A stretch of DNA of 64,000 nucleotides from an uncultured Synergistales bacterium (GTDB lineage: Bacteria > Synergistota > Synergistia > Synergistales > Aminobacteriaceae): the NCBI GenBank assembly GCA_905233565.1, contig CAJOCL010000003.1, forward strand, positions 1-64,000, given 5' to 3'. This document shows, piece by piece, positions 2,274-48,319 of the stretch. A program made the translations under genes and the position numbers. Numbering within the stretch: the stretch's first letter is position 1; each line of letters starts with the position of its first letter. A model generated the notes under the pieces. That model was not told the DNA's origin. It made no database searches and saw nothing but the letters and a program-made list of their open reading frames with translations.

Positions 2274-3199
2274 GCACAGCGGTTTTTGAAATCTTCATAG
2301 GCCAGCTTTATGCCATCGCGTAAACTGGTCTTGTATTTCCAGCCTAATGCCTCTGCTTTGCTGACATCGAGAACTTTTCGCGGTGTTCCGTTGGGTTTTG
2401 AAGTGTCCCAGAGAATTTCGCCCTCATAGCCGACAACTTCAGCGACTAAACTGGTCAAATCCTTTATCGTAATTTCGAGGCCCGTACCTGCGTTTACCGT
2501 TTCGCTTCCCGAATAATTATTCATAAGGAAGACGCATAATTCCGCAAGATCGTCAACAAAAAGAAATTCGCGCAGCGGGCTTCCGTCTCCCCAACATGTT
2601 ACGGATTTCAGATCTTTAGATTTTGCCTCATGGAAACGCCGTATCAATGCCGGCAGGACGTGAGAATTTTCGGGGTGATAATTATCATTTATTCCGTATA
2701 AATTGCAGGGCATAACGGAGATGTAATCAGTCCCGTATTGTGTGTTTAAGTATTCGCAGTATTTAAGCCCTGAAATTTTTGCGAGTGCGTAAGCCTCGTT
2801 TGTCTTTTCGAGATAACCGGATAACAAATACTCTTCTTTTATGGGCTGTTCCGACATTCTGGGATAAATGCAGGATGAGCCGAGAAATTCAAGTTTTTTG
2901 CAGCCGTTCAGCCAAGACGAGTTTATGACGTTCATTTCTATCATCATGTTGATATACATGAAGTCAGCGGGAGCATGAGAATTTGCCGATATTCCGCCGA
3001 CTTTTGCGGCTGCTAAGAAAACATATTCGGGCTTTTCGGCCTCAAAGAATTTCATAACTTCATTCTGAGATGTCAGGTCAAGTTCTGAGTGTGAACGCGT
3101 TATTATGTTCCCGTAACCCTGACGCTCTAATTCACGCTTTATTGCTGATCCGACCATGCCTCTGTGTCCCGCAACATAAATTTTTGAGTCCTTATTCAT
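2270..3199 (-). CDS. fcl: GDP-L-fucose synthase
   Basis: NADPH-dependent epimerase/reductase that turns GDP-4-keto-6-deoxy-mannose into GDP-L-fucose for surface polysaccharides. The N-terminal Rossmann loop reads [10 protein letters not shown] (residues 10-19). The catalytic triad is visible as Ser in LGSSCIYPR (about 108) and the YxxxK pair Y137/K141. The 309 residues match the family length. GDP-mannose 4,6-dehydratase, the previous pathway step, is not in the window, but a mannose-1-phosphate guanylyltransferase is encoded at 20345-21406. An AGGAAGGA site lies upstream of the start. The gene diverges from queH across a 72-base AT-rich palindromic spacer. Confidence 0.93.
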
Positions 3200-3219
3200 A
3201 GATTTCTTTAATCCTTCCT

Positions 3220-3259
3220 GTTAAAATTTAAAAAAATAATATCATTTTTTAATTTTAAC
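3220..3259. repeat. AT-rich inverted repeat between divergent fcl and queH
   Basis: The spacer between the two divergent start codons is almost entirely an imperfect palindrome. A GTTAAAATT-type arm followed by an A-run mirrors a T-run followed by AATTTTAAC, with about six unpaired bases at the centre and one bulged base in one arm. It could be a symmetric divergent promoter or operator, or a cruciform. Nothing else explains the spacer. Confidence 0.55.
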
Positions 3260-3271
3260 GGGGATTTTGAC

Positions 3272-3808
3272 ATGAAAAATTTGCTTTTACATATCTGCTG
3301 CGCTCCTGACGGTTCAATACCTGTGCCGGATTTAATTTCTGAGGGCTGGAACGTTACGGGATTTTTTTACGGCTCAAATATTCACCCCCTCGATGAGTAC
3401 ATGAAGAGGCTTGAGGCCGTCAATATACTGAAATCTCACAATAATATCGAATGCGTTGCGGGTAAATACAATCCTGCTGAATGGTTAAAATCCGTTGAAG
3501 GGCTTGAAAATGAACCCGAAGGAGGAGAAAGGTGTACACGGTGTTTCAAAATTCAGCTTGAGGCCTGTGCAGATGAGGCCGTTCAACTGGGCTGTGAATA
3601 CATTTCAACAACTCTGACTATAAGCCCTCACAAGAATGTCAATCTCATTAATTCAATCGGTGAAAATGCGGCTTCAAGTCACGGCCTTAAATGGGAAGAA
3701 AGAATATGGCGGAAAAATAACGGTTTTCTGCGTTCGGTGAAAATGTCACGTGAACTTGGGCTTTATAGGCAGAATTATTGCGGCTGCGTGTTCAGTTTTA
3801 GAAATTAA
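3272..3808 (+). CDS. queH: Epoxyqueuosine reductase QueH
   Basis: Catalyses the last step of queuosine synthesis, reducing epoxyqueuosine to queuosine in the tRNA wobble position. It is the non-homologous replacement for QueG and belongs to the former DUF208 family. The diagnostic cysteine pairs are visible: HICCAPDG (C9, C10), CTRC (C88, C91) and CGC near the C-terminus (C170, C172), which bind an iron-sulfur cluster and a metal. The length of 178 residues fits the family. A GGGG site sits eight bases before the ATG. No other queuosine gene is in the window, so the gene stands alone, facing away from fcl. Confidence 0.93.
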   Translation: MKNLLLHICCAPDGSIPVPDLISEGWNVTGFFYGSNIHPLDEYMKRLEAVNILKSHNNIECVAGKYNPAEWLKSVEGLENEPEGGERCTRCFKIQLEACADEAVQLGCEYISTTLTISPHKNVNLINSIGENAASSHGLKWEERIWRKNNGFLRSVKMSRELGLYRQNYCGCVFSFRN

Positions 3809-19630: not shown

Positions 19631-19773
19631 AATAAATGACTGTGCATAAAATACACTCGGTTTATAATTTTGTCAAATGGTCTAACGAATGAAAATATTT
19701 TGCAGGAACACATTTACAAGGGCACAACAAAAAGGCAAAGACTGTGTTATAATATTCTCGATATATAAAATTG

Positions 19774-19870
19774 TGCACACGACATACTTTGTCTTTTATC
19801 TTTGCCTATATTTACATTAAACATCATATAAATTATATCATATGGCAAAGCGGGCTTGTTGTTGTGTGCA
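19774..19870 (+). promoter_or_regulatory. Foldable 5' leader upstream of a small secreted protein
   Basis: A ten-pair outer stem (TGCACACGAC 19774-19783 with GTTGTGTGCA 19861-19870, one G-U pair) encloses a seven-pair stem (CTTTGCC 19800-19806 with GGCAAAG 19844-19850). The inner stem extends by three pairs past a bulged T. An AT-rich apical part completes the fold. A TATAAT box lies at 19748-19753 and the AGGAGGTG ribosome site follows at 19893. It matches no riboswitch I recognise. A cis-regulatory RNA is an inference from the nested pairing. Confidence 0.4.
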
Positions 19871-19908
19871 AATTTTCTTTAATCAATCATTCAGGAGGTG
19901 TCCCTTTA

Positions 19909-20277
19909 ATGAAGAAGTATAAGTTGTTTTTCTTATGTCTTCTGTCAGTTCTCGTTTTTACTGCGTTCGGATCCGGTACAGCTTTTGCCCGGTGGAAAAG
20001 CTATTCATTCCATAATCACAGCGGCCGTATCATCAAGTATCTCTATATCACCAGCTCTGGTAGCGGCGATTGGGGAGGAGATCTTCTCGGAAGCGAGGTT
20101 CTTGGCAGTGGTGATAGTGTATCATTACGGTATAACGATGATGTTCGCTTTTTCGATGTCAAAGTAGTATTCTCTGACGGCTCTGACGTAACTTTCTGGA
20201 AAGCCGATTATAAAAACGTGTGGAGAAAAACAATATTCCACAGGGGCGGTACTACCTACACATTAAGCAGCAATTAG
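19909..20277 (+). CDS. Small secreted protein, unknown function
   Basis: The 122-residue product has a clear signal peptide (MKKYKLFFLCLLSVLVFTAF, cleavage expected near residue 25 after AFA). The mature part of about 97 residues is beta-rich. It carries a spaced pattern NHSGRIIKYLYITSSGSGDWGGDLLG, then a GDSVSLRY step, FFDVKVVFSDGSDVTFWKADY and a TYTLSSN end. I have met this LYxxxSxxxxWGxDxLG layout in small periplasmic proteins of other Gram-negatives, but I know no function. The start at 19909 is fixed by AGGAGGTG eight bases upstream. It is monocistronic, behind a long foldable leader and before a hairpin terminator. Confidence 0.8.
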   Translation: MKKYKLFFLCLLSVLVFTAFGSGTAFARWKSYSFHNHSGRIIKYLYITSSGSGDWGGDLLGSEVLGSGDSVSLRYNDDVRFFDVKVVFSDGSDVTFWKADYKNVWRKTIFHRGGTTYTLSSN

Positions 20278-26007: not shown

Positions 26008-26035
26008 AAATTTTTCGTTCGTAAGCAGATATATA

Positions 26036-26153
26036 AATTAATTCCGAAGACGGCAGGAGCTTTTACGCTTAATAATTAACAAATCCTGCTCAGGAGTGAG
26101 ATAAACTGAGAGTAAGAATGCTCCTCCTGTGTTATTATGGGGGAGCATTTTTT
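26036..26153 (+). promoter_or_regulatory. L10 leader RNA with attenuator
   Basis: The 173-base gap before rplJ contains the conserved CCGAAGACGGCAGGAGC element (26044-26060) and a matching TCCTGC later on, as in the L10 leader that binds the L10/L12 complex. An attenuator hairpin (26117-26153) follows. Excess L10 is expected to favour termination before rplJ. Confidence 0.8.
26117..26153 (+). terminator. Attenuator terminator in front of rplJ
   Basis: The stem AATGCTCC (26117-26124) pairs with GGAGCATT (26142-26149), extends by a few further pairs, and is followed by six T residues (26148-26153). Lying inside the L10 leader before the coding sequence, it fits conditional termination rather than an operon end. 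Confidence 0.85.
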
Positions 26154-26180
26154 GAGGCTTAAAGGAGGTGAAAAGAAAAA

Positions 26181-48081: not shown

Positions 48082-48319
48082 AAACAATTCCTCCCGACTT
48101 GCCGCGCAATTACGTAATATACGACATGTTAATTTTTTGATACCTCTAAAATTTTCAAATCAAGTTTGGCCGCTACGTATTATAACATATACAATAATCA
48201 TTATAAATACTTATACAGTAAATAAACTCACCTGTTCTTGATTGCGGTTATTATAACACAGCATAAACTCAGGTATTCAGCGGATTTTACCATTCTAAGA
48301 CGGTTAATTTTGCACTTTT
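48082..48319. promoter_or_regulatory. AT-rich promoter region before the LysM/M23-pyrG genes
   Basis: The 238-base gap holds no ORF. On the minus strand two perfect TATAAT boxes are visible (48250-48255 and 48179-48184), each able to serve transcription into the LysM/M23 gene. Their -35 boxes are weak, so neither promoter is certain. The alaX-like gene upstream on the same strand has no clear terminator here. Confidence 0.4.

Follow-up and report, generated by a model that had tools for sequence, protein, structure and literature searches.

The window, as the whole 64,000-nucleotide stretch is called here, carries at 19909-20277 on the plus strand a gene for a small secreted protein, with a divergent tRNA-Leu gene on the minus strand as its upstream neighbour. 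The start of the protein is signal-peptide-like by eye and no Pfam family was detected in it above cut-off. NusG relatives place the host genus among gut Synergistaceae, mostly of ruminants. The 5' leader of the gene contains a nested hairpin, and further elements lie around and inside it. In order of position these are:

19727-19825, minus strand: predicted antisense RNA of about 95-100 nt, one end placed from the -10 and the other from the stem and U-run
19729-19733, minus strand: A-run (a U-run on the antisense strand, directly after the stem), from the base composition of the copies
19733-19740, minus strand: P arm (AGGCAAAG on the plus strand), predicted 3' arm of the closing, terminator-like stem of the antisense RNA; pairs with 19800-19807
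19743-19753, plus strand: sense promoter, extended -10 TGTGTTATAAT, a pattern match with no recognisable -35
19748-19753, plus strand: TATAAT box, read from the sequence
19761-19908, plus strand: sense 5' leader, its start estimated from the -10; fold z -3.5
19774-19784, plus strand: left arm of the outer helix, TGCACACGACA, from sequence, fold and alignment pairing
19800-19807, either strand: M arm (inner left arm CTTTGCC at 19800-19806), from fold and own-versus-foreign pairing; it serves the sense leader as left arm of the inner helix and the predicted antisense RNA as 5' arm of its terminator-like stem
19832-19842, minus strand: antisense promoter, extended -10 TATGATATAAT, in the hairpin loop, a pattern match
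19844-19850, plus strand: right arm of the inner helix (R), GGCAAAG, from fold and own-versus-foreign pairing (z -5.4; weak within the pilin class alone)
19860-19870, plus strand: right arm of the outer helix, TGTTGTGTGCA, from sequence, fold and alignment pairing; a T-rich stretch follows
19893-19900, plus strand: Shine-Dalgarno sequence AGGAGGTG, from the sequence
19909-20277, plus strand: small secreted protein of 122 aa, ATG at 19909

The original prediction was of a nested hairpin in the leader of the small secreted protein, and this hairpin is present: its arms can be read from the sequence and its fold is more stable than those of shuffled sequences. The 97-base stretch 19774-19870 has a fold energy of -25.9 kcal/mol (z -3.9), equalled by 1 of 200 dinucleotide shuffles; with its flanks included, as in the sense leader, the energy is -34.1 kcal/mol (z -3.5; 0 of 200). 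The inner helix has the seven pairs proposed, CTTTGCC/GGCAAAG, and the placement between TATAAT (19748-19753) and the ribosome site AGGAGGTG (19893-19900) is as claimed. The outer arms are indeed complementary but form 11 pairs, one of them G-U, rather than ten. Two features had been missed, namely the minus-strand extended -10 inside the loop (19842-19832) and the arm at 19733-19740 upstream of the promoter, which also pairs with 19800-19807.

The hairpin is a single instance of an element that is dispersed through the genomes of a genus of gut Synergistaceae ("Fretibacterium" MAGs) and covaries among its copies. The first recurrences came from a same-genus protein search with the small secreted protein and from a DNA search with the leader, pieces of which were found in other genomes, sometimes many times. 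At E<=0.1 a sequence-only model built from 17 seeds (R1) had matches in 42 of the 43 genus genomes, with about 4 chance matches expected in all. The richest genomes have 42, 40, 28 and 28 matches, a few of which may be second-strand echoes because the element is near-palindromic; the list for G047 has at least 35 distinct places. When 149 genomes were drawn evenly from the order, 29/30 genomes of the genus and 3/119 others matched at E<=0.01, among the matches listed. The window genome has five copies at E<1e-4. They precede the small secreted protein, a lipoprotein (L113) that has a List_Bact repeat, a secreted protein (L114) the start of which resembles the GLUG protein of L123, a pair consisting of a helix-turn-helix and a radical-SAM protein (by eye), and a prepilin.

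Loss of the pairing where the gene is kept had been named as evidence against the original prediction, and this was partly observed. When R1 was run on 32 loci of relatives, the element was strong at two of the four close orthologues of the small protein (G001 and G043) and in the window, and weak and partial at the other two (G022, E 1e-6; G004, E 1e-5). At 26 loci of distant homologues no R1 match was found at E<=1. The element therefore goes with gene sets and not with this protein family. The family itself has two members in the window genome (19909-20277 and G000:C2:163537-163854) and matches in 20 of the 43 genus genomes; a search of the small protein against genome contigs gave no match.

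On the plus strand the copies share one order: an A-run, the P arm, the sense extended -10, the outer left arm, a variable stretch or hairpin, the M arm, the complement of the second extended -10, the inner right arm, the outer right arm and the ribosome site. The 9 nt located 5' of the P arm are 72% A (32% across copies), and the 12 nt past the outer right arm have a T fraction of 0.51 in 52 copies (0.32 overall). The variable hairpin between the arms is weak in the window genus, with a mean z of -1.2 in the 18 copies long enough.

Covariation in relatives had been proposed as the check on the hairpin, and it was found both by own-versus-foreign pairing and by alignment. In the first, alignment-free approach the pairing of each copy's own segments was compared with that of segments mixed and matched from other copies (54 copies, 5000 permutations). 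The outer helix pairs at -19.3 kcal/mol with its own and -16.4 with foreign partners (z -6.6), the inner helix at -13.7 and -11.7 (z -5.4). The P and M arms form a third helix, at -14.3 versus -12.0 kcal/mol when read as antisense (z -7.1) and -12.7 versus -10.1 when read as sense (z -8.4). None of the 5000 permutations reached the own-pairing values of P-M, outer or inner helix, and five control pairings, one of them tried on both strands, gave z from -1.2 to +1.0. For single copies the effect is modest: the own partner ranks in the best tenth for 12-15 of the 54. In the 32 copies outside the pilin class all three helices hold (P-M, outer, inner: z -5.6, -5.1, -4.9; controls -0.1 to +0.5). 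In the 22 copies of the pilin class P-M (z -3.4) and the outer helix (z -3.2) hold, and the inner helix (z -2.1) hardly beats two of its three controls (-1.8, -0.2, -1.8).

On a sequence-only alignment 95.8% of the outer helix cells are paired, against 14-54% when the arms are slid. Its changes are mostly one-sided, with 5 cells changed on both sides versus 1.3 in shuffles. For P-M, where register slips are visible, 76.1% of cells are paired (43-61% when slid) and 31 are changed on both sides (15.9 in shuffles). M pairs with either P or R, mutually exclusively. The inner right arm also pairs with sequence further downstream, copy-specifically in the non-pilin class (z -3.8, 0/3000) and not in the pilin class (z -0.6), with no fixed target.

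The loop of the hairpin contains a conserved stretch, AATTATAnCAYA, which might be taken for an aptamer core and is an extended -10 promoter on the opposite strand. In the 54 copies the minus strand reads TRTGnTATAAT with only R and n varying (n is A in 20, T in 17, G in 11 and C in 6), part of this constancy being imposed by the locating pattern, which fixed TG and part of the hexamer. The sense strand has TRTGnTATAAT in nearly all of the 54, with n as C in 47 and T in 7. These copies were gathered by a model already containing both -10s and are those in which both motifs were found; two of 56 were dropped, one with a degenerate antisense -10 (L080) and one with a degenerate sense -10 (L130). 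The extended -10 consensus has a free base at n, the position where the motif of the copies varies. In the window TRTGnTATAAT occurs 5 times, against a shuffle mean of 0.25. A strict -35/-10 scan of the window lists neither promoter, and the antisense -35 is weakly better than in shuffles (3.35 vs 2.90 of 6).

The conservation of the loop bears on another reading of the leader, a cis-regulatory RNA acting on the sense strand only (a riboswitch, a thermometer or a protein-binding RNA), with AATTATAnCAYA as an RNA motif and the minus-strand -10 as a coincidence. The outer and inner helices lie wholly within the sense leader and covary, as this reading expects, and part of the copies have extra hairpins after the element. 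However, the loop reproduces on the minus strand the same promoter form as the sense -10, free base included, and the third covarying helix draws on sequence upstream of the putative sense start. No Rfam family was placed on the element, and the Shine-Dalgarno sequence is not in the hairpin. A sense-only leader is therefore unlikely.

The Rfam scans covered the window at the gathering threshold and 14 loci up to E 5, and no match overlapped the element, in agreement with the earlier statement that the fold is not a recognised riboswitch. A riboswitch was rejected on this ground and because the Shine-Dalgarno sequence (19893-19900) lies outside the hairpin (19774-19870); the same position led to rejection of an RNA thermometer. 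The suggestion that the leader exerts control in response to temperature or a ligand thus survives in its first half, a structured and probably regulatory leader, while temperature or ligand sensing found no support. Translational control by occlusion of the Shine-Dalgarno sequence was also rejected, since antisense cover makes no difference to its predicted accessibility in 41 copies (p 0.35).

Among the 46 copies with an upstream frame of 600 nt or more, this frame lies in tandem in 27 and in divergent orientation in 19, which often leaves the minus-strand promoter without a gene to serve. The idea that this promoter exists only for a divergent neighbour was rejected: a mechanical neighbour call puts the upstream frame in tandem in 33 and in divergent orientation in 21 of the 54 copies, but this call is wrong for the window itself, where the tRNA-Leu neighbour is divergent. 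In the window the minus-strand promoter could also feed this tRNA-Leu gene.

Two further observations concern promoters. On the minus strand of the window, TRTGnTATAAT occurs twice without mismatch within 48179-48260, at a spacing of 71 bases. In pilin-class copies (e.g. L068, L070, L076) a dyad like TTATG-N6-CATAA was seen by eye about 40 nt upstream of the putative sense start; it is centred near -41.5 at a promoter without a -35, a position typical of a class II activator site.

An RNA started at the minus-strand promoter would be stably folded. The predicted antisense RNAs, taken from the start to the U-run (mean 94 nt), have a mean z of -3.25, with z<-2 in 48/54, whereas control stretches 450 nt upstream have a mean z of 0.08 (z<-2 in 1/52). 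Sense leaders have a mean z of -3.14 (z<-2 in 45/54), and fold z does not discriminate between the strands. The antisense RNA of the window alone is weakly better than shuffles (z -1.4), with a stem loop of about 60 nt, and a terminator scan of this copy listed no terminator.

Because P lies upstream of the putative sense start, an RNA that starts from the sense -10 lacks this arm and the P-M helix with it; the helix needs either an antisense transcript or a sense transcript begun further upstream. Read on the minus strand, P-M joins the 5' end of the predicted antisense RNA to the 3' arm before the U's. In the alternative a longer sense transcript from upstream would hold P, M and R, and M would switch between P and R as in a classical attenuator. 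The mutually exclusive pairing of M suits such a switch. The own-versus-foreign z of P-M is also larger in the sense reading (-8.4 vs -7.1), which speaks against the antisense strand, and the only irregular P-M pair in the four aligned copies of the sister genus is a G-U when read as sense. However, nearly all copies have an extended -10 separating P from M, and it is on the minus strand that the P-M stem is followed by a U-rich stretch; we regard the long sense transcript as very unlikely. The counts of G-U versus A-C pairs in P-M favour the antisense strand (6 vs 22), but foreign pairings lean nearly as much; as a proof of strand this comparison failed its foreign-pair control and was dropped.

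Many copies of the element stand before genes of secreted or surface proteins. In 49 of the 56 copies examined a gene with a ribosome-site-like motif follows within about 420 nt, genes having been called in the sense direction only. The 49 products comprise 18 prepilins, 6 with a lipobox-like start and 25 others, and the N-terminus is strongly hydrophobic in 40 of them. The small secreted protein to which the original prediction tied the leader does follow it, but the same leader also stands before many other surface or secreted genes. Nine products were scanned for domains. One is a prepilin and one has no domain; the others include List_Bact with Ig-like, GLUG with Ig-like, C-type lectin with LRR, tRNA_anti-like, WavE, ankyrin and radical-SAM/SPASM/PqqD domains.

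The Pfam prepilin domain N_methyl lies just downstream on the same strand in 15/19 listed copies in G010 and 14/20 in G057, as matched by eye among the matches listed. This recurrent arrangement weighs against a mobile or invertible element, such as a MITE or a phase-variable promoter, which the inverted repeats and the many copies per genome might suggest. The arms moreover vary between copies and covary, while recombinase sites should be constant. Such an element is hardly credible and was rejected.

Taken together, the conserved double -10s, the covarying helices, the stable potential antisense RNA and the association with secreted and surface genes are best read as a cassette of convergent promoters, with the structured leader of surface and secreted genes under the control of a cis-antisense RNA. 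The probability of this reading is estimated at roughly 0.57. We infer the strand and the mode of action of the cassette from sequence, and likewise the firing of both promoters, the end of the antisense RNA at the U-run and lowered expression.

In the proposed mechanism the sense extended -10 would drive the mRNA of a surface or secreted protein, the 5' leader of which folds as the conserved nested hairpin, as its covariation suggests. From the loop promoter, on the other strand, an RNA of about 95 nt antisense to the start of the leader would be made. Its end-to-end stem followed by a U-tract, to which sequence and covariation point, should stop it just beyond the sense -10. The antisense transcript would most likely repress the gene in two ways, through transcription across the sense promoter and through base pairing with the leader as it is made. 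Convergent promoters acting by transcriptional interference alone, with the antisense RNA itself inert, would account for the conservation of both -10s and for an antisense path that crosses the sense -10. They would need neither a stably folded antisense RNA nor a covarying leader hairpin, and this explanation is quite unlikely. Within the antisense cassette, transcriptional interference and attenuation remain as modes of action, attenuation having some support from the sister genus.

A diverged form of the element is real in this sister genus of the family (G143). It keeps the antisense -10 and has an outer helix TGTCCACACGACC/GGTCGCGTGGACA with one mismatch and a complementary variable hairpin; variants of the outer helix are TGTTCACCCG/CGGGTGAACA and, in G153, TGTCCACTCGGCC/GGTCGAGTGGACA. 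The helix lengths computed there allow for the odd mismatch and do not serve as pair counts. A model of the sister-genus copies (R2) matched 2/4 genomes of its own genus, 9/43 of the window genus and 0/34 other genomes of the family at E<=0.01, and five of its hits in the window genus are places which R1 also found. The predicted antisense RNAs of the four sister-genus copies have z of -4.3, -3.9, -4.3 and -5.3. The sense leader of all four copies has a terminator-like stem, ACAGGGG/CCCCTGT, with TTT after it (in one copy a long T run) and CCCCTGTTTT as the putative termination site. Antisense cover is predicted to favour this stem in two of the four copies, as in pT181-type attenuation, raising its probability from 0.20 to 0.998 and from 0.41 to 0.999; in the other two it is unchanged (0.64 to 0.66; 0.995 to 0.999).

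Several known systems resemble parts of the cassette. The DonS RNAs are described as cis-antisense RNAs of 78-128 nt in Bacteroides PULs, several per genome, which negatively affect susC-homologue genes (PMC7366714). The likeness lies in a family of short cis-antisense RNAs at surface-protein genes, several per genome, and is one of description. DonS belongs to another phylum and targets susC homologues of glycan loci, and the relevant part of PMC7366714 does not mention for DonS a covarying leader hairpin whose loop carries a convergent -10. For the cassette, the short RNA opposite the leader of its target is a prediction in promoter, length and fold. The pT181 repC attenuator, as outlined in PMC4878617, has an antisense RNA that can pair with the 5' part of a leader capable of two folds, and the sister-genus copies have a terminator-like stem, the 5' arm of which competes with the leader fold. 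The cassette differs in being chromosomal, present in many copies and linked to surface genes, and in the window copy no terminator was found. An antisense RNA is also reported at the type IV pilin gene pilE of Neisseria meningitidis; according to the account in PMC4402397 that transcript is long, starts 3' of the gene and affects antigenic variation, not pilin level. The nearest systems in function are the DonS family and pT181 attenuation.

The element was not found in searches of open-licence papers, which offered analogues at most and, for noncoding RNA and pilins of Synergistetes, gave no paper; the best 12 of 1,740 records of one search showed no such element. The regulatory cassette is apparently undescribed. 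Type I toxin-antitoxin loci have overlapping sense and antisense RNAs and encode small toxins, unlike the varied secreted proteins downstream of the cassette. They were rejected, as the products here are prepilins, lipoproteins and other mostly long proteins and not small hydrophobic toxins.

Cis-antisense RNAs are often taken for noise, since their conservation is seldom shown. Their relevance as a class is described as unclear in the part of PMC7366714 that treats them. Here the antisense promoter, the predicted RNA and the overlapped leader are conserved and covary together, which makes the functionality of such RNAs directly testable. The cassette also points to a way in which uncultured gut Synergistota may regulate a large repertoire of pilins and surface proteins. 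Since arms from one copy pair better, on average, with each other than with arms from elsewhere, antisense control may be largely private to each gene. It is possible, if doubtful, that the copies form a genome-wide network of private antisense switches, in which the covarying arms would keep each antisense RNA gene-specific and a subset of surface proteins, chosen or random, would be displayed. Bacteroides have invertible promoters, and such a network, with 35 or more places in the richest genome, would if true be their RNA-based counterpart.

A few other features were noted in the leaders and genes of individual copies. Eight copies (L068, L069, L070, L071, L073, L074, L078, L080) have a second module between the element and the ribosome site, with a hairpin like GTGCAGTAACCATTCTGCA; some of these have another hairpin like TTCATC..GATGAA that by eye varies in both arms. 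The module may be an additional domain of the leader. At L074 a full-length match to the cspA thermoregulator was found on the minus strand (2923-3371; 71.7 bits, gathering score 78), and window positions 26026-26161 are an ordinary ribosomal protein L10 leader by Rfam match. The downstream regions of L130, L146 and L152 look like a RiPP cluster under the leader of the element: at L152 a short, peptide-precursor-like open frame (MAYSKPKTVAKSAKKS...) precedes a radical-SAM-type gene, and a relative at L146 has radical-SAM, SPASM and PqqD domains.
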